A stretch of 64,000 nucleotides of DNA, taken from positions 1 through 64,000 of the forward strand of contig NZ_SUMB01000012.1 of assembly GCF_005048155.1 (NCBI RefSeq), given 5' to 3'. This DNA is from Streptomyces piniterrae. Its GTDB lineage: Bacteria > Actinomycetota > Actinomycetes > Streptomycetales > Streptomycetaceae. A program made the position numbers and the translations under genes. The notes under the pieces were generated by a model. The model was not told the origin of the DNA. It saw nothing but the letters and a program-made list of their open reading frames with translations, and made no database searches. Positions 4,911 through 47,955 of the stretch are shown here, one piece after another. Each line of letters begins with the position of its first letter. Position 1 is the first letter of the stretch.

Positions 4911-5033
4911 TTGGTCGGGTCTCGGCCAGCCGCGGACAGCGGCGGTCGGTCGCGGACCGGGACGGAGTGCAAGTCGGAGGCGTCGTGGGTGCGACGCGCC
5001 TCTTGTCGTGCGGGCGGGGTGCCTTGAAGCGGT

Positions 5034-5534: not shown

Positions 5535-5615
5535 CATCCGGCAGCGAGAGGATTTCGCTGTTTCGGTGCCGTCGAGGAGCCTCTGAGCGCAGTCTCTGCC
5601 TCGGAGGTGCCCACC

Positions 5616-29499: not shown

Positions 29500-29551
29500 G
29501 GCCTGCGCATCCGACGACGTACGCCGACTGGACCCTTGGAGGGAACCAGCC

Positions 29552-30712: not shown

Positions 30713-30751
30713 GACACCCCGGCGCCCCGGGGAGCGACCGCGTATCCCTCT

Positions 30752-30789
30752 GGCCGGTGGCGCGTGGCACAGACCACGCGCCACCGGCC
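30752..30789 (+). terminator. rppA terminator hairpin
   Basis: A perfect 16-bp stem GGCCGGTGGCGCGTGG / CCACGCGCCACCGGCC with a 6-base loop lies 39 bases after the rppA stop. Confidence 0.85.
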
Positions 30790-30820
30790 GCGTCCGTGAC
30801 CCGACTTGCGCGGTCGGATC

Positions 30821-30938
30821 ACCCGGAGACGCAGTCACGCGGAGACGGATCACCGGGGACGGCTCACCCGGAGACATCTCACTGGAGACGGCTCGCCCGG
30901 AGACGTCTCGCCTGAGACGGCTCACCCGGAGACGGATC
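30821..30938. repeat. Minisatellite of eight 14-16-bp units
   Basis: Eight consecutive units of the form ACCCGGAGACGGCTC vary at a few positions. They are followed by two copies of GCGGG(C/A)ATATCGCC. The array sits between two terminator-like hairpins in the rppA-peroxidase intergenic region and is probably non-coding. Confidence 0.8.
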
Positions 30939-31004
30939 ATCCGGCGGGCATATCGCCAGCGGGAATATCGCCCAGCGCCCCCGCGTTGTGGCCTGCAAGG
31001 GGCC

Positions 31005-31052
31005 TTCGCGTCCCCTAGGGGATCTGTTCGAACAACCCCTAGGGGACGCGAA
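31005..31052. terminator. 17-bp perfect hairpin between convergent genes
   Basis: TTCGCGTCCCCTAGGGG (31005-31021) pairs perfectly with CCCCTAGGGGACGCGAA (31036-31052). The 14-base loop contains the palindrome GTTCGAAC. It lies 16 bases past the peroxidase stop (minus strand), so it probably terminates that gene. Confidence 0.7.
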
Positions 31053-31068
31053 CCCCCGCCGCCTCAGG

Positions 31069-32325: not shown

Positions 32326-32363
32326 CGTCCTGCCATCCCTAGCTGTGTCATCCGGTAGCCGTT

Positions 32364-32398
32364 CGTCGCACATACCTGGGCTGCGTCGCACATACCTG
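32364..32398 (-). promoter_or_regulatory. Direct repeat upstream of the peroxidase
   Basis: CGTCGCACATACCTG occurs at 32364-32378 and 32384-32398, spaced 20 bases (two helical turns), 39-73 bases before the start codon. This suggests two side-by-side regulator sites. The rest of 32326-32671 holds no recognised gene; TACGTACGTA lies near 32410. Confidence 0.45.
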
Positions 32399-32671
32399 AG
32401 GGATGGTTTACGTACGTACGGCATTGGCCGGGGCCGACACGGCGCCCCGCGGCCCGATGTCACGCGTGAGTGCGCCGAGAGGTCCGCCGATCGGCCCCGG
32501 GCCCCGCCACGGATGGCCCAGGCGGACCCGGCAGCACGCGACACCGCCCGGCCGCGCTCCTATCGTCGGCCCTGTGGCCTGCGCGAACACCGGCGAGGCC
32601 GCCCGTCCTGAGCCCCCGTCACCCTCCCCGCGAGGACCCGCCCCCGCCCGACAAGCCCATGGACCCCACAC

Positions 32672-33071: not shown

Positions 33072-33905
33072 ATGCTTCGGCGTCGTCCCCCGCGGTCGGC
33101 GAGCGCAGACGACCTGCTGTCCACGCTCGGGCGGTTGACCGCTCAAGCGAGGGAAGGAGCTGAGCTCCAGCAGGCACGGGTGGAACTCGCCGAGGCGTTG
33201 CAGCGCGAGATGCTTCCCGCGACCCTGCCGGAAGCGCCCGGACTGCGGGCCGCCGCGACCTACGCACCCGCCCGGCACGGTCTGGACATCGGCGGCGACT
33301 GGTTCGACGGCTTCCCGCTGGCGGACGGCTCGCTCGCGTACTGCATCGGCGATGTCCAGGGCCACGACGTCGAGGCGGCCGCCTTCATGGGGCAGATCCG
33401 GCTCGCCCTGCGCGCCGTGGCCACCGGCGCCGCCGACCCGGGCGAGGTGCTCAGCAGGGCCAACGACCTGCTCCTCTCCGTGGACTGCGGCCTCTTCGCG
33501 ACCTGTACGTTCCTCCGCTTCGACCCGGTCACCTGGGAGCTGACCAGCGCCCGCGCCGGCCACGTACCCGGGCTCTGGGCCACCGCCGACGGCCGGTTCG
33601 GCCTCGCCGAGGACGCCGGCGGCCTGCCGCTGGGCATCATGCCGGCGGAGTCGTACCCGGTGACCCGCCGCAGGCTCACCAAGGCCGGGGTGTTCGTGCT
33701 GCTCACCGACGGGGTGGTCGAAGGCCCGTCGTTCCCGATCGAGGTGGGCCTGGCGAAGGTGGCCCGGCTGGTCAGTGACACCGTCGGCGCAGAACCGGCC
33801 GACGTGGCCGCCGGGGTGATGAGCGTCGCCGAGTTCACCGGCCACCAGGACGACGCCGCGGTGATCGTGCTGTGCCACGACGCCGCGGAGGACAGGCACG
33901 GGTGA
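33072..33905 (+). CDS. PP2C-type serine phosphatase (RsbU/SpoIIE)
   Basis: The 277-aa protein is almost only a SpoIIE phosphatase domain. It has an N-terminal linker helix (LLSTLGRLTAQAREGAELQQ) and LQREMLPATLP, then metal-binding motifs GGDWFDGF, IGDVQGHDVEAA, LLTDGVVEG and the final QDDAAVIVL. Such enzymes dephosphorylate anti-sigma-factor antagonists. No sensor domain is fused; the MASE1 membrane protein encoded 55 bases downstream may supply the signal. ATG 33072 is the likely start, though the frame is open from 32970. Confidence 0.85.
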   Translation: MLRRRPPRSASADDLLSTLGRLTAQAREGAELQQARVELAEALQREMLPATLPEAPGLRAAATYAPARHGLDIGGDWFDGFPLADGSLAYCIGDVQGHDVEAAAFMGQIRLALRAVATGAADPGEVLSRANDLLLSVDCGLFATCTFLRFDPVTWELTSARAGHVPGLWATADGRFGLAEDAGGLPLGIMPAESYPVTRRRLTKAGVFVLLTDGVVEGPSFPIEVGLAKVARLVSDTVGAEPADVAAGVMSVAEFTGHQDDAAVIVLCHDAAEDRHG

Positions 33906-33960
33906 AGCGCGGACGCGGGCGCGCGTGTCGTGAACGGCACCGGGACATCGGCGTTGTCTG

Positions 33961-34959
33961 ATGGCTGATGTGGTGCGCACCGAGGAGTTCCGGCGTCTCG
34001 CTACAGCAGGGCTCACGATCCTCGCCTTCGCCGCCGTCTACTTCGCGTCCGCACGGGTCGGCCTGCTGCAGCACGTGGTGATCGGGGGTGCGGTGGTCAC
34101 GCCTCTGTGGCCGCCGACCGGCATCGCGCTGAGCTGCCTGTTCCTCGTGGGCTTCTGGACCTGGCCGGGAATCGTCGTCGGCACGCTCCTGGTCATCGCC
34201 TCGCTCAGCCCGGTCGACCCCGGCGCCCTGGGGATCATGGCGGGGAACACCCTCGCGCCGGTGCTCTCCTACCTGATGCTGCGCCGGGTCGGCTTCCGCG
34301 TCGAGATGGACCGGCTGCGCGACGGTGTGGCGCTGGTGGCCCTCGGCGCCTTCGGCGGAATGCTGATCAGCGCCACGGTGGCCAGCTGCACCCTGTGGAT
34401 CACCGGCCACCTGCCGCCGGGCGGTTTCTGGCCGACCTGGGCGGCGTGGTGGGTGGGCGACGCGATGGGCGTGCTGGTGGTCGCCCCGCTGCTGCTCGCG
34501 CTCCGTACGGTGCGGTGGCCGCAGGACGTCCGTCCCTCCCGGTGGTTGGAGGCGGCGGCGCTGGCGGCCGCCTGTGTCGTGGTCTCGCTGCTGGTGACCA
34601 GGAGCGAGCTTTCCGTGCTGTTCCTGGTCTTTCCGCTGATCGTGTGGGCGGCACTGCGCTTCCAGCTCATCGGCGCGGCGCCCTGTGTGCTGGTGCTGTC
34701 CCTCTTCGCGATCACCGCGGCGACCGAGCAGAGCGGGCCGTTCGGAGGCCAGTCCCTCCTCTCCGCCATGGTCAACCTCCAGGCCCTGAACGGGTCCGCG
34801 GCACTGACCGCGCTGCTGCTGTCGGCCATCGTCACCGAGCAGAACACCATCCGGCGGCGGATCGAGCAGGCGTGCCTGGAACTGGCCGAGGTGGTGGACC
34901 GCCTCGCGCCGGGGGAGAGCCGGCGCCGCTGGCCGCCCGAGGAGGGCGAGGCGCGGTGA
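33961..34959 (+). CDS. MASE1-domain integral membrane protein
   Basis: The 332-aa product has about eight hydrophobic helices and the MASE1 hallmark TPLWPPTGIALSCLFLVGF near residue 47, with PGGFWPTWAAWWVGDAMGVL further on. MASE1 is usually the sensory membrane part of kinases, cyclases or phosphatases. Here it stands alone, ending in a short cytoplasmic coiled tail (EQNTIRRRIEQACLELAEVV). It directly follows a free SpoIIE phosphatase, so the pair may act as a split sensor. The ligand is unknown. Confidence 0.82.
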   Translation: MADVVRTEEFRRLATAGLTILAFAAVYFASARVGLLQHVVIGGAVVTPLWPPTGIALSCLFLVGFWTWPGIVVGTLLVIASLSPVDPGALGIMAGNTLAPVLSYLMLRRVGFRVEMDRLRDGVALVALGAFGGMLISATVASCTLWITGHLPPGGFWPTWAAWWVGDAMGVLVVAPLLLALRTVRWPQDVRPSRWLEAAALAAACVVVSLLVTRSELSVLFLVFPLIVWAALRFQLIGAAPCVLVLSLFAITAATEQSGPFGGQSLLSAMVNLQALNGSAALTALLLSAIVTEQNTIRRRIEQACLELAEVVDRLAPGESRRRWPPEEGEAR

Positions 34960-34976
34960 TGCGGCGGTGCGCGCCG

Positions 34977-36038
34977 TCAGCCGCCGAGCAGTTCTCCCAG
35001 GTCGTAGCCGACCGGCTCCTCCAGCTGGGCGTAGGTGCAGCTCTCCGGTGACCGGTCCGGGCGCCAGTGGCGGAACTGGGCCGTATGACGGAATCTGCTG
35101 CCCTCCATGTGGTCGTAGGCGACCTCGCACACCCACTCCGGGCGCAGCGGCACCCACGACAGGTCCTTGCCGCCGCTCCACCGGCTGGGCCCCCCGGGCA
35201 TCCGCTGCGACGCGTGTGCCGCCTCGTCGGTCCAGTCGCCCCAGGGGTGGTCCGAGACATCGTCCATCCGCAGCGGCTCCAGTTCCTCGACGAGCTTGCG
35301 CCGCTTCGCCATGGGGAACGAGGCGCACACCCCGACATGCTGGAGTTGCCCGGCACTGTCGTGCAGCCCGAGGAGCAGGGATCCGACGACCGGTCCGCTC
35401 TTGTGCAGCCGGTAGCCCGCGACGACACAGTCCGCCGTGCGAGCGTGCTTGATCTTGAACATCGCCCGGTCGCCGAGCCGGTAGGGCAGATCCAGTGGCT
35501 TGGCGACCACGCCGTCCAGGCCCGCCCCCTCGAACTGTGTGAACCAGGTCCGGGCCAGCTCCTGATCGGTGGTGGCGGGCGCGGTGTAAACCGGGGCCCG
35601 GGCCGCGCGGAGCGCCTCCACCAGCGCTTCCCGCCGGGCCGACTGCGGCGCGTCCATCAGCGATTCGGAGCCGAGGGCCAGCAGATCGAAGGCGATCAGC
35701 GAGGCGGGCGTCCGCTCGGCGAGCATCCGGACCCGGGAGTCCGCCGGATGAATGCGTTCCAGCAGCTCCTCGAAGTGCAGCCGCCCGTCATGGGCGATGA
35801 CGATCTCGCCGTCGACGACGCACCGCGGCGGCAGCTGGGCGCGCGCGGCGGCGACCACCTCGGGAAAGTAGCGGGTGAGGGACTTCGTCGTACGGCTGCC
35901 GATCTCGATGTCCTCGCCGTCCCGGAAGACGATCACCCGGAACCCGTCCCACTTGGCCTCGTACTGCATGCCCGCGGGGATGTCGGTCACCAGCTTGGCG
36001 AGCATGGGGGAGACCGGTGGCATGACAGGCAGATCCAT
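34977..36038 (-). CDS. ATP-dependent DNA ligase (LigC type)
   Basis: The 353-aa ligase has the nucleotidyltransferase motif EAKWDGFR with Lys29 as the AMP-accepting residue. Other motifs are SRTTKSLTRYFPE, VDGEIVI, GLDGVVAKPL and FKIKHARTADCVV, followed by an OB-fold domain (VGSLLLGLHD, WVPLRPEWVCEVAYDH). Length and the lack of a DNA-binding domain match LigC of actinobacteria. It diverges from a LigD-like primase-polymerase (134 bases apart). Mycobacterial LigC works with Prim-PolC in gap repair, so the same pairing is likely here. Confidence 0.9.
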   Translation of the reverse strand: MDLPVMPPVSPMLAKLVTDIPAGMQYEAKWDGFRVIVFRDGEDIEIGSRTTKSLTRYFPEVVAAARAQLPPRCVVDGEIVIAHDGRLHFEELLERIHPADSRVRMLAERTPASLIAFDLLALGSESLMDAPQSARREALVEALRAARAPVYTAPATTDQELARTWFTQFEGAGLDGVVAKPLDLPYRLGDRAMFKIKHARTADCVVAGYRLHKSGPVVGSLLLGLHDSAGQLQHVGVCASFPMAKRRKLVEELEPLRMDDVSDHPWGDWTDEAAHASQRMPGGPSRWSGGKDLSWVPLRPEWVCEVAYDHMEGSRFRHTAQFRHWRPDRSPESCTYAQLEEPVGYDLGELLGG

Positions 36039-36172
36039 GCTCCCGATCCTGCGCGCTCGCGGCGCTTCGCGCGCGCCAGGGGCTTGGTGTGCCCGGGGTT
36101 CGAAGACCCCGAGGGTCCGCCCCTGTCGCTCCCCGCCGCGCGCCGGAGCCCCACCGAACCTAGCGTGGACGC

Positions 36173-37183
36173 ATGGCCGCAGGAGCTGTCGAGCTGGACG
36201 TCGCCGGGCGCACGGTGCGGGTGTCGCATCCGGACAAGACGTACTACCCGGAGCGCGGATTCACCAAGCTGGACGTCGCCGAGTACTACCTCGCCGTGGC
36301 GGACGGGGTGCTGCGTGGTCTGCGGGACCGGCCCACCACCATGCAGCGCTTTCCCGACGGGGTGGAGGGCGAGTTCTTCTATCAGAAGCGCGCGCCGAAG
36401 GGGCTGCCGGACTGGCTGCCCACCGCCCGTATCGCCTTCCCCAGCGGACGTTTCGCCGACGAGATATGCCCCACCGAACCGGCCGCGGTCATCTGGGCGG
36501 CCAACCTCGGCTGTCTGACCTTCCACCCCTGGCCGGTCCGGCGGGGCGATACCGAACACCCCGACGAACTGCGGATCGACCTCGACCCGCAGCCCGGCAC
36601 GGATTTCGCCGACGCCGTCACGGTCGCGCAGGCGCTGCGCGAGCTGCTGGCCGAGCACGGGCTGAGCGGCTGGCCCAAGACGTCCGGCGGCCGCGGGGTG
36701 CACATCTACGTCCCGATCCGGCCCCAATGGACGTTCACCGAGGTCAGACGGGCCGCGATCGCGCTGGCCAGGGCCATGGAACGCCGGATGCCGGAGCTGG
36801 TGACCTCGGCCTGGTGGAAGGAGGAGCGCGGCGCCAAGGTCTTTGTGGACTACAACCAGATGGCCCGGGACCGGACCATCGCCTCGGCCTACTCGCTGCG
36901 CGCCCGGCCCCGTGCCACCGTCTCCACCCCGCTGCGCTGGGAGGAGCTGTCCGACGCCGCGCCCGAGGACTTCGACCTGCGCACCGTCCCGCCGCGGTTC
37001 GCCGAACTCGGCGATGTGCACGCGGACATGGGCGAGCACGCCTTCGGTCTGGAATCCGTCCTCGAACTCGCCGACCGGCAGGCGGCGGACGAAGGACTGG
37101 GCGATCTGCCGTACCCGCCCGACCATCCGAAGATGCCGGGGGAGCCGTCCAGGGTCCAGCCGAGCCGGGCCCGCAAACGCTGA
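36173..37183 (+). CDS. LigD-type primase-polymerase (PrimPol)
   Basis: The 336-aa protein is an archaeo-eukaryotic primase-like polymerase. The metal-binding pair is in ELRIDLDPQPG (Asp136, Asp138). Other motifs are KTSGGRGVHIYVPI, which binds the nucleotide triphosphate, and VFVDYNQMARDRTIASAYSL. It is a stand-alone domain without ligase or nuclease modules, like Prim-PolC. It would fill short gaps, often with ribonucleotides, for the ligase encoded divergently. No Ku gene is present in the window. Start ATG 36173 is close to the divergent promoter region. Confidence 0.9.
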   Translation: MAAGAVELDVAGRTVRVSHPDKTYYPERGFTKLDVAEYYLAVADGVLRGLRDRPTTMQRFPDGVEGEFFYQKRAPKGLPDWLPTARIAFPSGRFADEICPTEPAAVIWAANLGCLTFHPWPVRRGDTEHPDELRIDLDPQPGTDFADAVTVAQALRELLAEHGLSGWPKTSGGRGVHIYVPIRPQWTFTEVRRAAIALARAMERRMPELVTSAWWKEERGAKVFVDYNQMARDRTIASAYSLRARPRATVSTPLRWEELSDAAPEDFDLRTVPPRFAELGDVHADMGEHAFGLESVLELADRQAADEGLGDLPYPPDHPKMPGEPSRVQPSRARKR

Positions 37184-37372
37184 GCGGCACGGCCAGACGA
37201 ACGCCGCGGGCGCCCGGCAGGGCGCGGCGGCGGCCGCTCGGAGGCCGCATACTGACCGCAGGGCCGGCCGCGCGGCCGCGCCCGTACCGCCTGGTCAAGG
37301 GACCGGCCCGGACCGGCCGCCGGCATGCGGCGCACCGGACCAGGGCGCCGACGTCGAGGCAGGCAGCTTGCC

Positions 37373-38596
37373 GTGAGCGAACCCCGGATCGACTACGCGG
37401 CGGTCTTCCAGGACCTGCCGGGAGCCGTGCTGCTGCTCACCCCGCAGTTCGTGATCGTCGACGTCAACGAGGCGCTCCTGCGGGTTTCCGGGCGCGAGCG
37501 GGAGCATCTGGTCGGCCGCTATCTCATCGACGTCTTCCCCGACAATCCCGGCGATCCGGAGGCGACCGGCTCCCGCAACCTCCTCGCCTCCCTCCGGCGG
37601 GTGGTGTCCACCGGCACGACCGACACCATGGCGCTCCAGCGTTACGACGTGGAGCCGCCCGGCCGGCCGGGCGTGTTCGAGGAGCGCTACTGGAGCCCGG
37701 TCAACGCCCCCGTGCTCGGCCCCGACGGGAAGGTGCAGCTGGTCATCCACCGGGTCGAGGAGGTCACCGAGCTCATCAGGGCGCGCCGCGAGGCCGGCGG
37801 CAACCGCGAGCGGCTGGAGGCCGAGCTCTACACCCGGGCCCAGGAGCTCCAGGCGGTCAACGAACGGCTGCGCGCCGCCCATGCCAGGGAACGTCAGGTG
37901 GCGCTGGCCCTCCAGGACGCGATGCTGCCCGCGCCCCGGCCCGTGGGGCACCACCGGGCGGCGGTCCGCTACCAGCCCGCCGTCGGGGCGCTGAACGTCT
38001 GCGGTGACTGGTACGCACTGGACGACCTGCCCGGGGACCGGATGGCGGTGGCCGTCGGCGACGTCGTCGGGCATGGGCTGGCGGCCGCCTGCGTCATGGG
38101 CCAGCTCCGCAGTGCGCTGAGCGCCGCGACCCTCGTCGTCGGTGGGCCCGCCCGAGCGCTGGAAGTGCTCGGCCGGTACGCCGGCTCCGTGGACGGCGCC
38201 GAATCCACCACCGCCGTGCAGGTGGTCATCGACTGGGCCGCGCACACCCTCACCTACAGCAGCGCCGGCCATCCGCCGCCGGCCCTGCTGCGCCCGGGTG
38301 GCAGCGTGGAGTTCCTGGACCGGGCGACCGACCCGCCGCTGGGCGCCCGGCCCGATCATGTGGCCCGGCCCGAGGCGCACACCCCGTTCACCGACGGCAC
38401 CGTCCTGGTCCTCTACACGGACGGGCTGATCGAACGCCGCCGCGAGGACATCGACGTCGGGCTGGCCCGCCTCGCGGATTCCCTCACCCGGCACCAGGGC
38501 GCCGCGCCCGAAGCGCTCGCCGATGCGCTGCTGTCGGAGCTGATCCCGCCCGGCGGCGCCACCGATGACACGGCGCTGGTCATCATCCGCCTCTGA
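37373..38596 (+). CDS. PAS-SpoIIE phosphatase
   Basis: The 407-aa product has an N-terminal PAS domain (DYAAVFQDLPGAVLLLTPQF, VNEALLRVSGREREHLVGRY), a coiled linker (AELYTRAQELQAVNERLRAA) and a SpoIIE phosphatase domain (LQDAMLPAP, VCGDWYALDDL, VGDVVGHGLAAACVMGQLRS, SSAGHPPPALL, LYTDGLIERR, DDTALVII). In the first metal motif GG-D-W-F/Y-D the second aspartate is replaced by alanine (GDWYAL), which may alter activity. GTG 37373 is preferred to ATG 37325 because the PAS domain starts right after. Likely role: redox- or ligand-sensitive control of a sigma-factor antagonist. Confidence 0.85.
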   Translation: MSEPRIDYAAVFQDLPGAVLLLTPQFVIVDVNEALLRVSGREREHLVGRYLIDVFPDNPGDPEATGSRNLLASLRRVVSTGTTDTMALQRYDVEPPGRPGVFEERYWSPVNAPVLGPDGKVQLVIHRVEEVTELIRARREAGGNRERLEAELYTRAQELQAVNERLRAAHARERQVALALQDAMLPAPRPVGHHRAAVRYQPAVGALNVCGDWYALDDLPGDRMAVAVGDVVGHGLAAACVMGQLRSALSAATLVVGGPARALEVLGRYAGSVDGAESTTAVQVVIDWAAHTLTYSSAGHPPPALLRPGGSVEFLDRATDPPLGARPDHVARPEAHTPFTDGTVLVLYTDGLIERRREDIDVGLARLADSLTRHQGAAPEALADALLSELIPPGGATDDTALVIIRL

Positions 38597-38781
38597 CCAG
38601 CGGAATCTCCGGTTCGGCGGCGGGCTGCGGAACGGCACGGGCGGGCGTCCCTGTCCTGCGCGGCTGCTGCGGTCGGAGCAATATCAGCACGGAAGAGCGA
38701 ATATCCCTATTGGCTGCAAAATGCCCTGGTTTCCGCGGTATCGATCCCATGTCCGATCCCTGCCAACCAGGAGAGAACGCA

Positions 38782-39084
38782 ATGCGCAAGATCATAGGAC
38801 GTTCGCTGGCCACCGTGGCGCTTGCCGCCGTCGCCATCGTCCCGCTCGGCGGCGCGGCCCAGGCCGCACCCGTCGCGCCGACGGCCAAGGTCGTCGTGGC
38901 CGACGACGGCCACGGCCGTCATGGCCATGGTCACGGTCACGGTCACGGCCGTCACCACCGTCACCACGGCCACTGGGGCCACGGCGGCTGGGGTCACGGT
39001 CACGGTCACGGCTGGGGCTGGGGCGGCGGTGGATGGGGCTGGGGCTGGCCCTTCGGCTGGGGCGGTGGCCTTTTCGGCTTCTAA
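38782..39084 (+). CDS. Small exported His/Gly/Trp-rich protein
   Basis: The 100-aa product has a clear signal peptide (MRKIIGRSLATVALAAVAIV, ending AQAA near residue 28) and a mature part made mainly of His, Gly and Trp. A run of HGHGHGHGHGRHHRHHGHW passes into GWGWGGGGWGWGWPFGWGGG. The DNA is repetitive GGTCAC units. The His-rich half should bind Ni, Zn or Cu; the Trp/Gly half may self-associate or contact the wall. I know no named family. ATG 38782 follows AGGAGA. It is monocistronic. Confidence 0.8.
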   Translation: MRKIIGRSLATVALAAVAIVPLGGAAQAAPVAPTAKVVVADDGHGRHGHGHGHGHGRHHRHHGHWGHGGWGHGHGHGWGWGGGGWGWGWPFGWGGGLFGF

Positions 39085-39231
39085 CAGCCAGTAGTTGAGA
39101 CGGGCCGCCGCGGCGCACCATCCGCGGCGGCCCGTCGTCGCTTGCCCGGACTGCTGCTGGCCGGCCCGCTGGCCGTCCGGCGTGCTGCTTGCCCGGCGTG
39201 CTGGTTGTCCGGCCTGCCTCTGGGGGACGTG

Positions 39232-39864
39232 ATGTGCTGGAGCGCGACGGCGGACCTGGCGGCGGGCGCCGGAATCGCCGCCGTCGGAGTGGCCTGCCTC
39301 GTACGACTGCGCCGCGTATCCGATCTGCCGCTGGCCGCGCTGCCGCTGCTCCTCGGGATCCACCAGATCATCGAGTCCGCCGTCTGGCGTACCGGCGGCG
39401 GCACCGGTCCGGCCACCACGGCCTGGGCGGTCGTCGCCCTGCCCCTGCTCGCCGTATGGGTGCCCCTGGGCGTGCTCCTCGCGGCCCCACCGGCCGCCCG
39501 GCGCCGGCTGCTGATCCCCGCCGCCGCGGGTCTCGCCACCGCGGCGGCCCTCGCGTACGGCCTGGCCGACCGCCCCGCGACGGCCGAAATCCGGGGCCAC
39601 ACCGTCGGTTACCTGCTTGCGCTGCCGTACGCGCCGCCGCTCGTCGCCGGCTATCTCGCCGCCACCGTCGGAGCCCTGCTGCTCGGCGGCGATCCGCTGC
39701 TCCGGCTGCTGGGCGGCCTGGTCGGCGCGGGGGCGGTGATCTGCGCATCGCTGTGGCGGCTGGAGTTCCTCTCCACCTGGTGCGCCTTCGCCGCGGTGGC
39801 CGCGCTGCTGATGTTCGGCTGGGTGGGACGGAACCGGGCGGCCGGGTGGGCCGACGCGGCGTGA
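39232..39864 (+). CDS. DUF6629 membrane protein
   Basis: The 210-aa protein begins MCWSATADLAAGAGIAAVGV, the characteristic start of the DUF6629 family, with about seven transmembrane helices. Conserved-looking residues include IHQIIESAVW in helix two and a histidine in RGHTVGYLLALPY. The function of the family is unknown to me; the E/H residues in the membrane hint at a haem or metal site, which is a guess. GGGGGACG precedes the ATG. The 75-aa gene follows after 48 bases, in the same direction. Confidence 0.8.
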   Translation: MCWSATADLAAGAGIAAVGVACLVRLRRVSDLPLAALPLLLGIHQIIESAVWRTGGGTGPATTAWAVVALPLLAVWVPLGVLLAAPPAARRRLLIPAAAGLATAAALAYGLADRPATAEIRGHTVGYLLALPYAPPLVAGYLAATVGALLLGGDPLLRLLGGLVGAGAVICASLWRLEFLSTWCAFAAVAALLMFGWVGRNRAAGWADAA

Positions 39865-39912
39865 AGCGGCCCGCGATATGCGCCCCGTCGTTCCCGGCCG
39901 CAACCTGGGGGA

Positions 39913-40140
39913 ATGGACGAGAAGCCACCACGGGTGACCGTGCACCCGCCGGACCCGGACGGGGCGCGGCGCGTGACGGTCGGCGACCGGACCCTGGGAG
40001 TCGCCCACCGGATCGAGGACCTGGTGAAGTTCCTGCGGCACACCCGGCTGACGGAGCATGTGCCGCTGGACGAGGTGGAGGTCGAGGAGACCGACCTCAT
40101 CGACTGGCTCGGCGGCGGGCCGGAGGAGTGGGGAGACTAG
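39913..40140 (+). CDS. 75-aa conserved hypothetical, paralogue of the gene at 2156
   Basis: This 75-aa protein (MDEKPPRVTVHPPDPDGARR at the start) parallels the product of 2156-2383 over its whole length: HPP, GxRRVTV, a central AH, then an L-R/K-F-L-R helix and an acidic Trp-containing end. Same size and no gaps indicate gene duplication. It has no recognised domain; its strongly acidic C-terminal third (EVEVEETDLIDW) suggests a protein-binding role. It follows the DUF6629 gene and is succeeded by a small hairpin. Confidence 0.65.
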   Translation: MDEKPPRVTVHPPDPDGARRVTVGDRTLGVAHRIEDLVKFLRHTRLTEHVPLDEVEVEETDLIDWLGGGPEEWGD

Positions 40141-40175
40141 GGCCGGTCCGAGGCGGGGCTTGTCGTCCGCGGTCT

Positions 40176-40194
40176 CGGCGATCAGGGATCGCCG
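40176..40194 (+). terminator. Small hairpin after the 75-aa gene
   Basis: CGGCGATC-AGG-GATCGCCG is a perfect 8-bp stem 36 bases after the stop. The remaining spacer to 40487 shows no gene; it includes the leader of the next phosphatase with GGCGGAAGGA at its end. Confidence 0.5.
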
Positions 40195-40487
40195 ATCAGA
40201 GCCCCTCCCTCCGCTCTTCCCTCTGCTCGCCCATCGCCTTCACAGCGCGGGCGCGCTGCGTCGTACCGCCCTCGCTCCGTCATATGGCGTGACGGCTGGC
40301 GCCCGTCGTGAAATCCTTCATTTTTCAAGCTCCCGCCCCGGGAATTGATCTCCTGGGGATCCGGCTCTCCCTGCGGGCCCGTCCCGTCTGGAGAGATGAT
40401 GGAGGGCAGCTGAAGCACGGCGAGAGACGGCCGGTGCACGGAAGCACCACGGCTGCCGGTCCAGGTGGCCGGCGGAAGGAGTGCTGG

Positions 40488-42572
40488 ATGGGTGCGACCG
40501 ACGCGTTCCCGGACGACGTCGCCGCGGTCGGGGCGGGCCCCTCCGAGCCTGGCGGCCTGCTGGACGTGTTGGGCGTCGCCGCGGTGATGCTCGACGCGCG
40601 CGGGCGGATCACGCTGTGGAGCCCGCAGGCCGAGGAACTGTTCGGCTGGACCGCCGAGGAGGCGCTGGGCCAGTCCGCCGCGCACCTGCTCGTGGCACCG
40701 GAGAACCTGGAGCTGATTTTCCAGCTGTTCGCCCAGGTGATGGCGAGCGGCAAGAGCTGGGCCGGGGTCTTTCCCGTCGTGCACAAGGACGGCAGCACCC
40801 GTCTGGTGGAGTTCCGCAATATGCGGCTCCAGGACGAGCACGGCGACTCCTTCGCCCTGGGCATCGCCACCGACCAGGCGGTTCTGCGCCGGGTGGAGCG
40901 GGATCTGGCGCTGTCGGTGCGGCTGGTGGCCCAGTCGCCGATCGGGCTCGCCGTCCTCGACACCGACCTGCGCTTCGTCATGGTCAACCCGGCGCTGGAA
41001 CGCATCAACGACATGCCCGCCGAACAGCACATCGGCCGCCATGTCGCCGACGCCCTGCAGTTCCTGGACACCGAGACCATCGTGGCCACGATGCGCGACG
41101 TCCTCGCCAGCGGAACGCCGCGGCTCGCCCAGTTCACCGTCGGCCGCACCGCCGACGACCCCCACACCGATCACGCCTGGTCGGTGTCGTACTACCGTCT
41201 GGAGGACGCCAACGCCCGGGTCCTGGGCCTGGCGACCTCCGTCGTCGACGTCACCGAGCAGCACCGGGCCGCCACCGAAGCCGCCCGTGCCCGCCGGCGC
41301 CTCGCCGTCATCGCCGACGCCTCCGCGACTGTCGGCACCACTCTCGACGTCGACCAGACGGCCCACGAACTCGCCGACGTGATCGTGCCCGAGCTGGCCG
41401 ACCTGGCCGCGGTGGATGTGCTCGACGCCGTCCTGGAGGGCCGGCGTCCCGCTCCCCGCGTCCCCGGCGGACCGGCCCGCTTCCGGGCGCTGGCCGTCTC
41501 CGCCGCCTACGCCACCGACGCCGTGCGCGCCGCCGACCCCACCGGGCAGATCGCCTCGTACGACGCCGACCGGCTGATCACCCGGTGTGTGACCGACGCC
41601 CGCCCGGTCCTGGTGGCCCATGTGACCGACAAGGACCTGCCGCGTATCGCCGCCGATCCGGACGGTGCCGCGCTGCTCGGGCGGGCCGGACTGCACTCCT
41701 ATCTGGCGGTGCCGCTGATCGCCCGCGGTGAGGTCCTCGGTGCCCTGTCGCTGTACCGCGTACGCAATCCGCTGCCGTTCGACGAGGACGATGTCGCGCT
41801 CGCCGTCGAGCTGGCCGCCCGCGCCGCGGTGTGCATCGACAACGCCCGCTCGTACCAGAGCGAACGCCGCACCGCCCTGACCCTCCAGCGCCACCTGATG
41901 AACCACCGGCCGCGCCAGCCCACCGGCATGGAGATCGCCTACCGCTACCAGCCCGCGCTGGCGGCCAGCGAGGTCGGCGGCGACTGGTTCGACGCCATCC
42001 CGGTGGCCGGTGACAAGACTGCCCTGGTGGTGGGCGACGTCATGGGCAGCGGCATCAACGCGGCCGCCACCATGGGCCAGCTGCGCACCACCACCCGCGC
42101 CCTGGCCGAACTCGACCTGGATCCCGACGAGGTCCTCCGGCACCTCGACCACATCGCCGCGGGCCTCGACCCGGCCTTCGCCACCTGCCTGTACGCGGTG
42201 TACGACCCGCACCGCGAGGAGTGCCGGATCGCCGTCGCCGGCCATATGCCGCCCGTCGTCGTCCGGCCGGGCAAGGCTCCCGAACTGCTCGATCTGCCCA
42301 CCGGCGCGCCCCTCGGGGTCGGCGGCGTGCGCTTCGAGCAGACCACGGTGCCGCTGCGCGACGGCGACCAGCTGGTGCTCTACACCGACGGGCTGATCGA
42401 GACCCGCGACCAGCCCATCGACACCCGCCTGGACTCCCTGCTCAGCCTGCTCGCCGAGCCCGAGAGGCCGCTGGAGGAGCTCTGCGACCGGCTCCTGAGC
42501 GCGCTGCGCTCACCGCACGGCCACGACGATGTTGCGCTGCTCATCGCCCGGGTCAGCGCCGACGACGCCTGA
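40488..42572 (+). CDS. PAS-PAS-GAF-SpoIIE phosphatase
   Basis: The 694-aa protein combines two PAS domains (about residues 25-140, starting VMLDARGRITLWSPQAEELF, and 150-260, LDTDLRFVMVNPALERIND), a GAF domain (about 275-450, LHSYLAVPLIARGEVLGALS) and a C-terminal SpoIIE phosphatase (LQRHLM, GGDWFDAIPV, VGDVMGSGINAAATMGQLRT, LYTDGLIETRD, HDDVALLI). Unlike the protein at 45265 it has no HATPase kinase domain at the end. ATG 40488 has GGAAGGA 7 bases ahead. It should dephosphorylate an antagonist protein in response to signals sensed by PAS/GAF. No antagonist gene is next to it. Confidence 0.9.
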   Translation: MGATDAFPDDVAAVGAGPSEPGGLLDVLGVAAVMLDARGRITLWSPQAEELFGWTAEEALGQSAAHLLVAPENLELIFQLFAQVMASGKSWAGVFPVVHKDGSTRLVEFRNMRLQDEHGDSFALGIATDQAVLRRVERDLALSVRLVAQSPIGLAVLDTDLRFVMVNPALERINDMPAEQHIGRHVADALQFLDTETIVATMRDVLASGTPRLAQFTVGRTADDPHTDHAWSVSYYRLEDANARVLGLATSVVDVTEQHRAATEAARARRRLAVIADASATVGTTLDVDQTAHELADVIVPELADLAAVDVLDAVLEGRRPAPRVPGGPARFRALAVSAAYATDAVRAADPTGQIASYDADRLITRCVTDARPVLVAHVTDKDLPRIAADPDGAALLGRAGLHSYLAVPLIARGEVLGALSLYRVRNPLPFDEDDVALAVELAARAAVCIDNARSYQSERRTALTLQRHLMNHRPRQPTGMEIAYRYQPALAASEVGGDWFDAIPVAGDKTALVVGDVMGSGINAAATMGQLRTTTRALAELDLDPDEVLRHLDHIAAGLDPAFATCLYAVYDPHREECRIAVAGHMPPVVVRPGKAPELLDLPTGAPLGVGGVRFEQTTVPLRDGDQLVLYTDGLIETRDQPIDTRLDSLLSLLAEPERPLEELCDRLLSALRSPHGHDDVALLIARVSADDA

Positions 42573-42774
42573 CCGGACTCCGGGCCCGACCTGAGCCGCT
42601 GATCCACTGATCCGGTGCCGGTGGAGTGACCGTTTTCCGTGTCGGCCGACGGAAGAATCCGCACCTCTCGCGAGACCGCGAAATCCGCGTAATCGCTGGC
42701 CACGATGAGATGGATAGCGCCAAGCATCGTCCATCTCGCGACGGATTTCGTTGTCTCAAAGTGTTGACGGGTTC

Positions 42775-42803
42775 TTGACGGGGGTCTTGGGCGGGGGTTG
42801 TAT
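42775..42803 (+). promoter_or_regulatory. Putative promoter for the amino-acid permease
   Basis: TTGACG (42775-42780) is 17 bases from TTGTAT (42798-42803), a good SigA-type pair that would give a leader of about 105 bases. A second TTGACG lies at 42764. The rest of 42573-42914 shows nothing else convincing. Confidence 0.45.
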
Positions 42804-42914
42804 TCGGTCACCGAAGCGGCGCCGAACGTCCATCGGTCTGCACCGCCTTACGGCATTCACCTCGAAGGTGCCCCCTTCCTGCCCGCCAGCACCGATGGGA
42901 CATGGATAACTGAT

Positions 42915-44369
42915 ATGCCCGACACGACCGTTACCTCCGCAGCTCCTGAGCGGGAGACCCGCAGCGCGACGGAGGGGGACGCCCCCAAACTCACGCGTTC
43001 GATCGGTGTCGTCGGAGGAACGCTGCTCACGCTGTCCTGCCTGACCCCGGCATCGTCCCTGTTCGTGATCGTGCCGGACTCGTTCGCCAGCCTGGGCACC
43101 GGAACGGCGCTCACCATCGCGGTGGCGGCCCTGCTCTGTATCGGCGTCGCCTTCACCTACTCGGAACTCGGCACGCTCATACCGAGCTCCGGCGGCGAAT
43201 ACGCCATGGTCGGCACGCTCATGGGACGGCTCGCCGGATGGCTGGTCTTCATCCTCTCGCTGATCGTCGTCATGATCGTCCCGCCGATCATCGCCCTCGG
43301 CACCGCCGACTATCTGACCCCGATCCTGCAACTCGACCCGCAGTACACCGCCGCCGCGGTCATGCTGCTGGCCACCGCCATGGGCCTGCTCGACCTGCGT
43401 GCCAACGCCTGGATCACCGGCATCTTCCTGGTGCTTGAGGTTGTGGCCTGCGCCGTCGTCACCTTCCTCGGCTTCAGCCACACCAACCGGTCCGCCTCCG
43501 TGCTCGTCCACCCCGTGATGGACGCCGGGCACGGCCACACCACGGCCATCACCGCCGGGCTGATCGTGACCGGACTGGCCACCGCGCTCTTCATCCTCCA
43601 GGGCTTCTCGACGGCCGTGTACCTCGCCGAGGAGATGGACAACCCGCGCCGCAACGTCTCCCGCACCGTGCTGTGGACGCTGGGCATCGGCGCCGCCGTC
43701 GTCCTCGTCCCGGTGATCGCGATCACCCTCGGCGCACCGGACCTGGCGACGCTCGGCGCCGGTGACGTCGCCGGCATGGTCCAGGCGTGGAGCAACTCCG
43801 CCGTCGGCACCTTCGTCAGCCTCTGCATCGCCCTGGCGATCATCAACGCCGCGATCGTCATGGTGATCCAGAACTCCCGCGTGCTCTTCGCCTCGGCACG
43901 CGACGCCGCCTGGCCGACCCCCGTCAACCGCGTCCTGTCCCATGTCGGCCGGCGCTTCGGCTCCCCCTGGGCGGCCACCCTGGCCGTCGGCGTCCCCGGC
44001 GCGGTGCTGTGCTTCGTCAACCTCGACACGCTCAGCGAGGTCACCGGCGTCGCCGTCGCCGCGATGTACGTCTTCGTCGCGCTGGGTGCGCTGGTCTCGC
44101 GCCGCGGGGCCCACAAGCACCGCCTGGCCTGGCGGATGCCGCTGTGGCCGGCGGTCCCGGCGCTGCTCGTCGTGGCGCTGGCCTGGGTGCTCTCCCAGCA
44201 GAGCACCAAGAGCCTGGTCATCACCGGCGTCATCGTCGCGGTGGCCGCCGGGTACTGGGCGGGCTACCTCCGCCCCCGGCAGCAGACGCACTGGGTGATC
44301 TCGGTTCCCGAGGACGAGCAGGCCCCCGAGGCCGAGCCCGCCGCCGAGGTGGCGACGGCTTCCGCCTGA
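42915..44369 (+). CDS. APC-family amino-acid permease
   Basis: The 484-aa protein has about twelve membrane helices. The APC hallmark in helix one appears as GVVGGTLLTLSCLTPASSLF, followed by TYSELGTLIPSSGGEYAMVG and the FSTAVYLAEEMDNPRRNVSR loop after helix six. The N-terminus is a short polar segment; the C-terminus ends in an acidic tail (PEDEQAPEAEPAAEVATASA). The substrate is probably an amino acid or amine taken up with protons, but cannot be specified. ATG 42915 gives the normal family N-terminus. A 20-bp stem terminator follows. Confidence 0.88.
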   Translation: MPDTTVTSAAPERETRSATEGDAPKLTRSIGVVGGTLLTLSCLTPASSLFVIVPDSFASLGTGTALTIAVAALLCIGVAFTYSELGTLIPSSGGEYAMVGTLMGRLAGWLVFILSLIVVMIVPPIIALGTADYLTPILQLDPQYTAAAVMLLATAMGLLDLRANAWITGIFLVLEVVACAVVTFLGFSHTNRSASVLVHPVMDAGHGHTTAITAGLIVTGLATALFILQGFSTAVYLAEEMDNPRRNVSRTVLWTLGIGAAVVLVPVIAITLGAPDLATLGAGDVAGMVQAWSNSAVGTFVSLCIALAIINAAIVMVIQNSRVLFASARDAAWPTPVNRVLSHVGRRFGSPWAATLAVGVPGAVLCFVNLDTLSEVTGVAVAAMYVFVALGALVSRRGAHKHRLAWRMPLWPAVPALLVVALAWVLSQQSTKSLVITGVIVAVAAGYWAGYLRPRQQTHWVISVPEDEQAPEAEPAAEVATASA

Positions 44370-44384
44370 CGCCCGCCGGAACGC

Positions 44385-44429
44385 AACGGCACGGGGCCCG
44401 TCTCATCGAGAGACGGGCCCCGTGCCGTT
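44385..44429. terminator. Strong bidirectional terminator
   Basis: A perfect 20-bp stem (44385-44404 with 44410-44429) closes the 5-base loop ATCGA. It lies between the permease (plus strand) and the minus-strand gene ending at 44448. Confidence 0.88.
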
Positions 44430-44447
44430 GCATGTCGCGCGTCCCGA

Positions 44448-44810
44448 CTACTCGGCGGCAGGCCGGGACAGCGCGAGAGCGTCCAGCAGCAGGCAGACAT
44501 GGTCGACGGCGTCCCGTCCGTCGCGGCTGTCGGCGGCCTGCGGCGCGTCCAGGAGACCGGCGGTCCCGTGCAGCAGCCGGAGCAGGTCCGCGTTCGCGCC
44601 GGACACCGACGCCGCGGGGGAGAGAGCGGACCGTATCTGCTCGGCCGAGAGCGGCCGGCCCGTTTCCAGGAAGTCGAACAGCGCCACGGCGGCACGCCGG
44701 TCGGCACCGTTCGGCGTCCATACCCCGAGCGCGTGCTGGTCGATGAGCGCGGCCGCCTGGGCGCGGATCTCCTCGGGGCGGATCTCATCCGATACGTGCA
44801 TCACGTGCAT
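44448..44810 (-). CDS. Hypothetical 120-aa helical protein
   Basis: I do not recognise this 120-aa protein. It is predominantly helical and acidic (SDEIRPEEIRAQAAALIDQH, ADLLRLLHGTAGLLDAPQ, VDHVCLLLDALAL), with no signal peptide or membrane segment. The start may be ATG 44810 or ATG 44801; neither has a clear ribosome site. Its convergent position with the permease and shared terminator support it as a real gene. Confidence 0.55.
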   Translation of the reverse strand: MHVMHVSDEIRPEEIRAQAAALIDQHALGVWTPNGADRRAAVALFDFLETGRPLSAEQIRSALSPAASVSGANADLLRLLHGTAGLLDAPQAADSRDGRDAVDHVCLLLDALALSRPAAE

Positions 44811-45264
44811 CCCACGAACGTCTCATATCGGCTCGTCGGCCCGCTGGCCCCCATCCGCCGCCCCGCCGCCGCCCCCGCGCCGCCTCCGATCCGCCGCCGC
44901 AACGGCCTGACCAGGAACATTGAGCCGGAGGCCGCATTCCCTCGATCAGCTGCCGTCCGTCATCACGGCTTTTAAACCTGTGGCAAGAGTTACACGCGCC
45001 CATGCCCGCATCACCGGCCCCGAATAGCCTGAATACGTCGCAGGCTGTACGTATGGGACACGCCATGGCGGCGCAGTCAGGAACGACGCGACGGCACCGA
45101 CCCCGCACACGGCCACAGAACCTACCCGCGGGTCTGTCCGCCCTCTGGTGTCCTGGCCAGGACTACGGGACCATCGAACCGTAGATCGACCTGGGTTCCC
45201 GGCGGCCGCCGCGCTCCGCATCGTGCGGCTCGCCCACCGTATGCGGGAGGTGTAGAAAGAGGAC
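44811..45264. other. Spacer without recognised gene
   Basis: No frame here has convincing coding character. It must hold the divergent promoters of the 120-aa gene and of the large sensor phosphatase, whose ribosome site GAAAGAGG lies at the right-hand end. No clear repeat was noticed. Confidence 0.3.
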
Positions 45265-47955
45265 ATGGCCGGACGCTACGGCCGCCCGCGTTCGGTTCTG
45301 AGGATGCGAACTGTCGCAGGTCAGGTCTTTCTCCTGCAGGTGGCGATCGTGGTCCTGCTCGTCGCCGCCGCGATGACCGCGCTCGTGCTGCAGTCCCGGA
45401 CCGACGCGGAACGCGAGGCCACCAACAGATCGGTCGCCGTGGCCGAGACGTTCGCCAACGCCCCCGGCATGGAGCGGGCTCTCAAGAGCCCGCACCCGAC
45501 CGTGATCCTGCAGCCGCTGGCCGAAGCCGCCCGCAAACGCTCCGGGGTCGACTTCATCGTCGTGATGAACACCGAGGGCATCCGCTACACCCACCCCAAG
45601 CCCGACCGCATCGGCAAGAAGTTCGTCGGCAACACCGCCCCCGCACTGGCCGGCGGAATCGTCACCGAGAAGATCGTCGGCACCATCGGACCCCTGGTCC
45701 AGGCCGTCGTCCCCGTCTTCGACAACAAAGGCCACGTCATCGGGCTGGTCTCCGCCGGTATCACCATCGCCCGGGTGAGCGGCGTCGTCGACGACCAGTT
45801 CCCGCTGCTGTTCGGCGCCGCCGCCGGAGTGCTGCTCCTCACCACCGGCGGAACCGCGGTGGTCAGCAGAAGGCTGCGCCGCCAGACCCACGGCCTCGGC
45901 CCCGCCGAGATGACCCGGATGTACGAGCATCACGACGCGGTTCTGCACGCCGTACGCGAGGGCGTGATCATCGTCGGCGACGACCAGCGGCTGCTGCTCG
46001 CCAACGACGAGGCGCGCAGGCTGCTCGACCTCCCGGCCGACGTGGAAGGACGCCCCGTCGCCGACCTCGGGCTCGACCCGGTGACCGCCCGGCTGCTGAT
46101 CTCCGGGCGGATGGTCACCGACGAGGTGCACCCGGTCGGCGAACGGCTGCTCGCCGTCAACCAGCGGTCGACCGATCGGGACGGCGGGCCGCCCGGCAGC
46201 GTCACCACGCTCCGGGACACCACCGAGCTGCAGGCCGTCACCGGCCGCGCCACAGTGGCGCGCGGCCGGCTGAAGCTGCTGTACGACGCCGGTACGGAGA
46301 TCGGCACCACCCTCGACGTGGTGCGCACCTGCGAGGAACTCGCCCAGTTCGCCGCTGCCCGCTTCGCCGACATCGTCTCCGTCGACCTGTCCGAGGCGGT
46401 GCTGCGTGGTGAGGAACCGACCACCGCGGGTATCGAGATGCGGCGCACAGCCGTCGCCGGAGACCAGGAACACCTCGCCCTCTACCCGCTCGGAAAACTG
46501 ATCCGCTTCGAGCCGTCCACCGCCGTGGGCTCCGGAATCGCCGAGGGCCAAGCGGTCCTGGAGACGGATCTGGCGGCGTTCTCCGGCTGGCAGCGGCAGG
46601 ATCCCCAGCGGGCCAGGCGGCTGGTCGCGGACGGCCTGCACTCCATGATCGCGGTGCCGCTGCGCGCCCGCGGCGTCATTCTCGGCGTCGCGATCTTCTG
46701 GCGCTCCGCTGCCACCCCCGAGCCCTTCGAGGAGGAGGACCTCTCCCTCGCCGAGGAGCTGGTCGCCCGCGCCGCGGTCAGCGTCGACAACGCCCGCCGC
46801 TACACGCGCGAGCACACCATGGCCGTCACCCTGCAGCGCAGCCTGCTGCCGCGCGGCCTGCCGGCGCAGAACGCCGTCGAAGCCGCGTACCGCTATCTGC
46901 CCGCGCAGGCCGGGCTCGGCGGGCTCGGCGGCGTCGGCGGGGACTGGTTCGACATCATCCCGTTGCCCGGGGCCCGCGTGGCACTCGTGGTCGGCGATGT
47001 CGTCGGCCACGGCCTGCACGCCGCCGCCACCATGGGACGGCTGCGCACCGCAGTCCACAACTTCGCCAACCTGGACCTGCCGCCCGACGAGCTGCTGTGG
47101 CACCTCGACGAGCTGGTCACCCGCATGGACCAGGACGAGGCCGCCGGCGGCACCGAGGGTGGCGTCACCGGCGCCACCTGCCTCTACGCCATCTACGATC
47201 CGGCGTCCGGGCACTGCACCATGGCGCGCGCCGGCCACATCCAGCCGGTGCTGCAGCTGCCGGACGGCACCGCGGATTTCATCGACGTGCCCGGCGGCCC
47301 GCCCCTCGGGCTGGGCGGTCTGCCCTTCGAGACCTGGGACATGAGCCTGCCCGAGGACAGCCGTCTGGTGCTCTACACGGACGGCCTGGTCGAAGACCGG
47401 GACCGGGACATCGACGAGGGCATGGCCCTGCTGATCCGCACACTGGCCGGACACACCGACCGGACACCCGACGAGACCTGCGAGGAGGCGCTCGGCGCAC
47501 TGCTGCCCGAGCGCCCGGCCGACGACATCGCCCTGCTCGTCGCCCGCACCCGCGTCCTGGACAGCACCCATGTCGCCGACTGGGACGTACCGCCCGACCC
47601 GTCGTCCGTCGCCCACATACGAGCCGCGGCGGTCGCCAAGCTCGGCGAGTGGGACCTGGCCGACGAGGCGTTCACCACCGAGCTCATCCTCAGCGAACTG
47701 GTCACCAACGCCATCCGCTACGCCACCGGCCCCATCCGCGTACGCCTGATCCGCGACCGCTCGCTGATCTGCGAGGTCTCCGACCGCAGCAGTACGTCAC
47801 CGCACCTGAGGCAGGCCGCCACGACGGACGAGGGCGGCCGGGGCCTGTTCCTGGTCGCGCAGCTGGCGGAGCGCTGGGGGACGCGGTACATGGCCGGCGG
47901 CAAGGTGATCTGGACGGAGCAGTCCTTGGCGGGGGAGGGCGCGTTCGGCGCGTAG
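45265..47955 (+). CDS. Membrane sensor with PAS, GAF, SpoIIE phosphatase and HATPase domains
   Basis: The 896-aa protein has a transmembrane helix (VFLLQVAIVVLLVAAAMTAL), an extracellular CitA/DcuS-like sensor (RSGVDFIVVMNTEGIRYTHP, about residues 60-180) and a second helix near 190. Inside follow PAS (VLHAVREGVIIVGDDQRLLL), GAF (about 335-510), SpoIIE phosphatase (LQRSLLPRGLP, GGDWFDIIPL, VGDVVGHGLHAAATMGRLRT, LYTDGLVEDRD, DDIALLVA) and a C-terminal HATPase/anti-sigma kinase domain (LSELVTNAIRYA, GGRGLFLVAQLAERWG). It unites phosphatase and switch-kinase activity and may sense an external carboxylate. Start ATG 45265 follows GAAAGAGG. Confidence 0.92.
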   Translation: MAGRYGRPRSVLRMRTVAGQVFLLQVAIVVLLVAAAMTALVLQSRTDAEREATNRSVAVAETFANAPGMERALKSPHPTVILQPLAEAARKRSGVDFIVVMNTEGIRYTHPKPDRIGKKFVGNTAPALAGGIVTEKIVGTIGPLVQAVVPVFDNKGHVIGLVSAGITIARVSGVVDDQFPLLFGAAAGVLLLTTGGTAVVSRRLRRQTHGLGPAEMTRMYEHHDAVLHAVREGVIIVGDDQRLLLANDEARRLLDLPADVEGRPVADLGLDPVTARLLISGRMVTDEVHPVGERLLAVNQRSTDRDGGPPGSVTTLRDTTELQAVTGRATVARGRLKLLYDAGTEIGTTLDVVRTCEELAQFAAARFADIVSVDLSEAVLRGEEPTTAGIEMRRTAVAGDQEHLALYPLGKLIRFEPSTAVGSGIAEGQAVLETDLAAFSGWQRQDPQRARRLVADGLHSMIAVPLRARGVILGVAIFWRSAATPEPFEEEDLSLAEELVARAAVSVDNARRYTREHTMAVTLQRSLLPRGLPAQNAVEAAYRYLPAQAGLGGLGGVGGDWFDIIPLPGARVALVVGDVVGHGLHAAATMGRLRTAVHNFANLDLPPDELLWHLDELVTRMDQDEAAGGTEGGVTGATCLYAIYDPASGHCTMARAGHIQPVLQLPDGTADFIDVPGGPPLGLGGLPFETWDMSLPEDSRLVLYTDGLVEDRDRDIDEGMALLIRTLAGHTDRTPDETCEEALGALLPERPADDIALLVARTRVLDSTHVADWDVPPDPSSVAHIRAAAVAKLGEWDLADEAFTTELILSELVTNAIRYATGPIRVRLIRDRSLICEVSDRSSTSPHLRQAATTDEGGRGLFLVAQLAERWGTRYMAGGKVIWTEQSLAGEGAFGA

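Follow-up and report, generated by a model that had tools for sequence, protein, structure and literature searches.

What a cluster of signalling phosphatases responds to, and what it acts upon, is the question raised by a 64,000-nucleotide stretch of the Streptomyces piniterrae genome (contig NZ_SUMB01000012.1, positions 1 to 64,000; "the window" in what follows), the genome as a whole comprising 8.49 Mb in 27 contigs. Inside positions 33072-47955 of the window lie four SpoIIE (PF07228) genes, all on the forward strand, with the gene for a MASE1 membrane protein between the first and the second of them. A preliminary description of this DNA proposed that the four phosphatases may converge on a common antagonist encoded elsewhere. 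It also placed the MASE1 protein beside the first, minimal phosphatase, as is indeed the case, but overlooked their being one conserved unit. It is with these two genes that the analysis is chiefly concerned:

33072-33905, forward strand: minimal SpoIIE/PP2C phosphatase of 277 amino acids (aa), an N-terminal helix (12-47) followed by the catalytic domain, without a sensor domain (PF07228 at 139.9 bits, no other domain)
33961-34959, forward strand: stand-alone MASE1 membrane protein of 332 aa (PF05231 at 150.9 bits, cut-off 29.8)

Together the two proteins probably make up a single membrane receptor phosphatase, each being one half of it, a reading that we hold with moderate confidence because of the adjacency and co-occurrence of the genes, the exchange of the phosphatase partner, the existence of natural fusions and the conserved tail of the MASE1 protein.

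The reading frame of the minimal phosphatase is open from 32970 and has an in-frame ATG at 33072, which is favoured as the start because alignments with clear full-length homologues begin at residues 12-37 of the longer frame, and the one beginning at residue 12 holds only through stop codons. Residues G75-D76, D94, T212-D213-G214 and D260-D261 of the phosphatase are invariant across 63 aligned sequences.

Conservation of the phosphatase-MASE1 pair

All samples of MASE1 proteins were drawn from the better-scoring homologues. A SpoIIE gene was found directly upstream, on the same strand and within 600 nt (domain to domain), of 171 of 187 distinct MASE1 homologues; the remaining 16 comprise one with a SpoIIE gene at 1240 nt, two at contig ends and 13 without a SpoIIE gene in the 1.5 to 4 kb examined upstream. 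Searching 41 relatives with the MASE1 protein yielded 15 places in 12 genomes, 14 of them with SpoIIE directly upstream on the same strand, and matches to the minimal phosphatase of at least 56% identity occurred in exactly the same 12 genomes, all other listed matches being at most 45% identical. Amongst the 80 best named loci 76 are paired, two others begin at the end of a contig (L145, L158) and another two (L142, L162) are solo within 4 kb, a hidden SpoIIE gene having been looked for in these last two loci and not found. The gaps between the genes of the 76 named pairs, as estimated from start codons picked by script, are 33-128 nt in 63 cases and 145-344 nt in six, and the genes overlap in the other seven. 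A further 100 places chosen by hand had a SpoIIE gene upstream within 2 kb in 89 cases, 88 of these within 516 nt.

In a survey of 392 genomes from the genus, 224 were found to have both proteins, 18 MASE1 alone, four the phosphatase alone and 146 neither, at thresholds of 1e-60 and 1e-62 and with four borderline phosphatase matches set aside. One genome tallied as MASE1 only (G016) nevertheless carries a partial minimal phosphatase, and several other MASE1-only genomes represent GAF-type or solo loci. In all three located cases out of the four phosphatase-only genomes (L352, L353 and L354) the MASE1 sequence that follows downstream is shortened or divided between frames, owing either to genuine decay or to errors in sequencing. 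The pairing of the minimal phosphatase with MASE1 is well supported. At five loci a further, convergent SpoIIE gene lies right behind the MASE1 gene, on the reverse strand (L169, L176 and L191, about 5015-5588; L189, 5016-5585; L182, 2132-2674).

Exchange of partner and natural fusions

The 172 SpoIIE partners of MASE1 are not all of one kind: 155 belong to one minimal lineage and 17 to another, GAF-type, lineage, Pfam having been run on one of the latter (L033). A single clade for both types of partner was rejected on a quick tree (approximately unbiased test, p-AU 6.5e-5) built from a thinned set of 83 rows, namely all 17 GAF-type partners, 25 of the 155 minimal ones and 41 paralogues. The 17 MASE1 proteins with GAF-type partners form one clade together with two solos (support 1.0), a single change on the tree, and since the members of this one clade have an unrelated GAF-SpoIIE partner, the upstream phosphatase has persisted though replaced. 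On the MASE1 tree there are five switches between the solo and the paired state. A pair in another family (L318) was considered as a third partner lineage and rejected, its phosphatase being 70% identical to minimal-type partners and so of the minimal lineage.

Fusions were sought in 40 loci, four of them from the genus of the window. One-protein fusions turned up in four genomes, all from a different family of the class, as MASE1-GAF-SpoIIE in L326, L327 and L332 and as MASE1-SpoIIE in L337; our own profiles gave three one-frame fusions, the MASE1 part of L337 being seen with Pfam only. Four is a lower bound, because most of the other loci went without Pfam. The strong MASE1 proteins of another family at L312-L316 gave no SpoIIE match, and their translations resemble hybrid histidine kinases by eye.

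Structure models and a possible mechanism

The AlphaFold2 model of the MASE1 protein (66 alignment rows) has a mean confidence (pLDDT) of 89.7 and consists of a part resembling the S-component of energy-coupling factor (ECF) transporters (12-184), further membrane helices and a helix at 266-315. This last helix ends at residue 315 of 332, so that 17 residues remain and there is no fused cytoplasmic output domain. The tail is amphipathic and conserved, with I301, C305, L308, V312 and L315 at a 4-3-4-3 spacing; its placement in the cytoplasm was made by homology to fused proteins together with charge counts, the topology of the helix at 220-255 being ambiguous. There are many invariant residues beyond the tail, for example W160, W164, D167 and N277. 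In the model of the minimal phosphatase (pLDDT 89.5, from a 63-row alignment) a helix of 36 residues (12-47) precedes the PP2C domain, and the nearest solved fold is that of Rv1364c (3ke6). By our own reading L16, L19, T23, A26, A30, Q33, V37, A40, Q44 and M47 of this helix follow a spacing of three to four residues, polar residues included. The RsbU study describes such unfavourable polar positions for linkers in a large number of predicted phosphatase dimers (PMC12143880).

When the MASE1 model was compared with solved structures by VIA-align, the top match was the riboflavin S-component RibU (5kbw, Z 14.2, root mean square deviation 3.2, 158 of 170 residues aligned), followed by ThiT (13.6) and BioY (12.2). 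The first eight rows, with Z from 14.2 to 9.4, all belonged to ECF transporters (three entries for RibU, one each for ThiT and BioY, single chains of a folate ECF complex and of CbiMQO, and one further S-component), seven of them within model residues 7-187, and the first row of another kind was an arabinosyltransferase at Z 7.9. Foldseek gave E values of 0.2 or worse, yet a probability of 0.99 for BioY and RibU. The match was obtained with the predicted model of one MASE1 branch. The AXXXA motif, through which helix 1 of S-components docks to EcfT, was looked for as well: positions 25 and 29 are both alanine in 18 of 66 sequences, and some AXXXA lies within 8-35 in 45 of 66. A search by sequence for a solved relative of MASE1 gave just bile-acid transporter matches at E 0.08-0.1, which were not used.

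A possible mechanism may be drawn from these models. The S-component-like part (12-184) would detect a ligand or a membrane condition, and the last membrane helix of MASE1 would continue into the cytoplasm as a short amphipathic helix (about 293-316) that might contact the N-terminal helix (12-47) of the phosphatase. Such a contact could order or dimerise the PP2C domain and thus switch its activity, and the switched phosphatase would dephosphorylate at least one STAS anti-anti-sigma protein whose gene lies elsewhere. In this way the proposed receptor would carry out, with two chains, the coiled-coil linker mechanism described for RsbU. The other three phosphatases of the cluster would each be a sensor in its own right within one general network, kept in synteny among close relatives, and the last of them has a kinase domain of its own. 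It is a more speculative proposal, and one about which we are doubtful, that MASE1 domains are generally receptors with an S-component fold, for vitamin- or cofactor-like ligands, which in Streptomyces and its relatives have become detached and switch a separate, exchangeable PP2C phosphatase through a split coiled coil.

The other phosphatases and their neighbourhood

The remaining SpoIIE genes of the cluster, and the genes that separate them from the pair, are as follows:

34977-36038, reverse strand: ATP-dependent DNA ligase (PF01068, PF04679), outside the proposed unit
36173-37183, forward strand: LigD primase-polymerase protein (PF21686), outside the proposed unit
37325-38596, forward strand: PAS_4-SpoIIE phosphatase of 423 aa (Pfam)
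40308-42572, forward strand: phosphatase with PAS, PAS_4, GAF and SpoIIE domains (the PAS-PAS-GAF form), up to 754 aa (Pfam)
45265-47955, forward strand: protein of 896 aa with sCache_3_2, GAF, SpoIIE and HATPase_c_2 domains (Pfam)

The four phosphatases with different sensors that had been described within 15 kb were all recovered, with PF07228 scores of 139.9-185.2 bits against a curated cut-off of 25, and the PAS and PAS-PAS-GAF forms have the domains ascribed to them; the start of the latter gene is uncertain, there being an in-frame ATG at 40488. The last protein had been called a CitA-like/PAS/GAF form with a kinase end, and here Pfam gave sCache_3_2, GAF, SpoIIE and HATPase_c_2 but, at E<=0.001, no PAS domain; to judge from its domains, it combines a phosphatase and an anti-sigma-type kinase domain in a single chain. 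The motifs GDW, GDV.G, TDG and DD, which we take to hold the metal-binding aspartates, are kept in the translations of all four phosphatases.

Clustering of the four genes exceeds chance. Over the whole genome 42 places score above the Pfam cut-off for SpoIIE, plus one weak one, and when 42 genes were placed uniformly over 8.49 Mb, four or more fell within some 14.6-kb stretch in 0.19% of 20,000 draws. The contig that contains the window (C4, 312 kb) carries nine of the 42, and nine in such a stretch occurred in 0.37% of uniform draws. In 13 of 14 close-relative regions the pair, a SpoIIE gene at the position of the PAS-PAS-GAF form and the SpoIIE-HATPase gene occur in the same order, equivalence being judged by position and order; the fourteenth (L204) is a different contig and so not informative for synteny. 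In five of the 14 (L199-L203) the PAS-SpoIIE position is likewise occupied by a SpoIIE gene. The cluster is thus real in one clade, since the 13 regions keep the gene order, but it dissolves at greater distance, where the PAS form and the pair are spread over differing sets of genomes: amongst the 41 relatives the PAS form matched at E<=1e-60 in 17, other genera included, and MASE1 homologues were found in 12, all of one genus. A genome with both may have them far apart, as in G013 (7.79 and 1.48 Mb against 8.35 Mb). A recent tandem duplication of the four phosphatases was considered and is not supported, each having different nearest neighbours in the SpoIIE tree, where several of the branches concerned are weakly supported.

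That no sigma factor or antagonist adjoins the four, as the preliminary description noted, is right for the neighbours scanned, and it is also ordinary in this genome, because none of the 42 SpoIIE genes has a STAS or sigma-70 region 3 place within 5 kb (sigma factors of the extracytoplasmic function type, having no region 3, fell outside this genome-wide search). The genome has 8 STAS, 11 STAS_2 and 9 sigma-70 region 3 places over the cut-offs. The possibility that a local antagonist or SigB-type sigma factor had been overlooked here or in the relatives was pursued and nothing was found; none of 115 loci from relatives gave a match to a STAS or SigB-type profile.

Unrelated genes stand between the four phosphatases: the DNA ligase and LigD genes listed above, and further ones for an amino-acid permease and a DUF6629 protein. 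The ligase and the LigD polymerase genes are divergent, presumably as in two-gene end-joining sets. Between two of the phosphatases a 120-aa protein is encoded on the reverse strand (44448-44810); it has no Pfam match and a phmmer match in 13 of the 14 close-relative regions. A 100-aa open reading frame on the forward strand (38782-39084), with a start like a signal peptide, a remainder rich in glycine, histidine and tryptophan and no Pfam match, recurs in 11 of the 14. Genes for a cytochrome P450, a type III polyketide synthase and a Dyp-type peroxidase lie just upstream of the cluster (28288-32544), a sensor with a NIT domain and a HATPase_c domain follows shortly after it (50525-52480, forward strand), and other genes scanned in the window code for a secretory lipase and an AraC-type regulator, while some frames had no match.

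Alternative explanations

A number of observations weigh against the proposal that the minimal phosphatase and MASE1 are halves of one receptor. Counts of co-occurrence and adjacency include shared descent, and adjacency itself favours co-inheritance. The 13 MASE1 homologues without an upstream SpoIIE gene still keep the conserved tail, so the tail may serve other partners, and these solos, together with the five changes between the solo and paired states, count against exclusive pairing. A GAF domain lies between MASE1 and SpoIIE in three of the four fusions, which therefore do not show direct coupling, and the topology test came with a warning of long branches near the 17 partners of GAF type. 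The fold match makes use of a predicted, mostly helical model, and by the alignment tool's own note the best Z of mostly helical models that lack a clear match is typically 14. In a mean-field direct coupling analysis (DCA) of 155 pairs, pairings of the MASE1 tail with the phosphatase helix accounted for three of the top 100 inter-protein pairs, 2.8 being expected, and the top inter-protein pair was isolated; no usable coevolution signal between the two proteins was found, and an analysis with 67 effective sequences neither supports a contact between the helices nor could exclude one. The two genes might instead form one operon within a pathway and their products never touch, MASE1 acting by itself as a transporter-like or sensory protein and the phosphatase being otherwise controlled or constitutive. 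Adjacency and short gaps indicate co-expression at most, DCA without an interface signal is what this would predict, and the resemblance of the MASE1 model to transport S-components points the same way, but the exchange of the partner for an unrelated phosphatase lineage, the natural MASE1-SpoIIE fusions and the conservation of the tail helix in a protein that has no output domain all argue against it, and we regard it as unlikely.

Less probable again is a MASE1 without any sensing role, which would merely hold the phosphatase at the membrane or stabilise it there. The phosphatase of the window has no Pfam domain besides SpoIIE and the 155 members of its lineage are likewise called minimal, which speaks for an anchor, but the other-lineage phosphatase with its own GAF domain (L033) also pairs with MASE1, and the many invariant MASE1 residues outside the tail go beyond what an anchor needs. 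Convergence of the four clustered phosphatases, as a functional group, on one common antagonist seems to us very improbable. In its favour, 13 of the 14 regions have the pair in synteny with another two SpoIIE genes, and phosphatases so far outnumber STAS proteins in the genome (42 SpoIIE against 8 STAS and 11 STAS_2) that convergence is arithmetically plausible genome-wide, but nothing singles out these four: they are not close kin, unrelated genes lie between them, the PAS form and the pair are distributed differently and the fourth SpoIIE gene is present in only five of the 14 regions. A similar imbalance is seen in S. coelicolor, for which a published survey lists 44 PP2C phosphatases, 17 RsbV and 45 RsbW homologues (PMC8346170). 

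Comparison with known systems

The partner proteins RsbQ and RsbT are soluble, whereas the partner proposed here is a multi-helix membrane protein, and the phosphatases of the RsbP-RsbQ and RsbU-RsbT systems have an N-terminal domain of their own, whereas the minimal phosphatase lacks a sensor domain. What the proposed receptor would share with these systems, if MASE1 plays the analogous role, is the activation of a PPM phosphatase by a separate partner protein, as described for Bacillus subtilis (PMC12143880, PMC3183031); in RsbU this takes place through a helical, coiled-coil linker (PMC12143880). A MASE1 domain is also present in Escherichia coli DgcE and Salmonella YfgF (PMC6510439, PMC3718329), and the former report adds that MASE1 of DgcE is a docking site for another protein, RdcA. 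In those proteins MASE1 is fused to GGDEF/EAL domains, whereas MASE1 in the window stops after a short helix and has a phosphatase as its proposed partner.

The six-helix fold of S-components has been linked to the 5TMR receptors of sensor kinases, fusions to SpoIIE included (PMC11109136), and neither "MASE" nor PF05231 occurs in the main text of that study. The predicted MASE1 model may have this fold in common with 5TMR receptors and ECF S-components; helix-1 AXXXA is not conserved at 25/29 in it, and its S-component-like part is succeeded by additional helices and the tail. The RsbU study names two multidomain SpoIIE phosphatases, OsaC from S. coelicolor and Rv1364c from Mycobacterium tuberculosis (PMC12143880). 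The protein at 45265-47955 resembles Rv1364c as a SpoIIE phosphatase fused to an anti-sigma domain, and differs from Rv1364c and OsaC in having an sCache sensor and no STAS domain.

Significance

In the open-licence papers searched none was found that joins MASE1 with SpoIIE, those matching MASE1 and Streptomyces do not seem to concern such a pair, and no paper among the matches listed treats MASE1 together with an S-component. Searches of this scope are weak evidence of novelty, and on such evidence the pair would add an unreported type of partner-controlled PPM phosphatase.

Occurring in 224 of 392 genomes, the pair gives a defined input (MASE1) and a defined output (the phosphatase). The genome analysed here has 42 SpoIIE phosphatases, and that of S. 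coelicolor a similar number. The S-component-like fold is a structural lead to what MASE1 domains might bind and, if valid for other branches, would concern all MASE1 receptors. If the proposed receptor is real, the control of PPM phosphatases through a coiled-coil linker extends to a sensor and an enzyme on separate chains, and if MASE1 receptors have indeed become detached in Streptomyces and its relatives, there would be a two-protein system leading from ligand to phosphatase alongside the two-component systems of histidine kinases.

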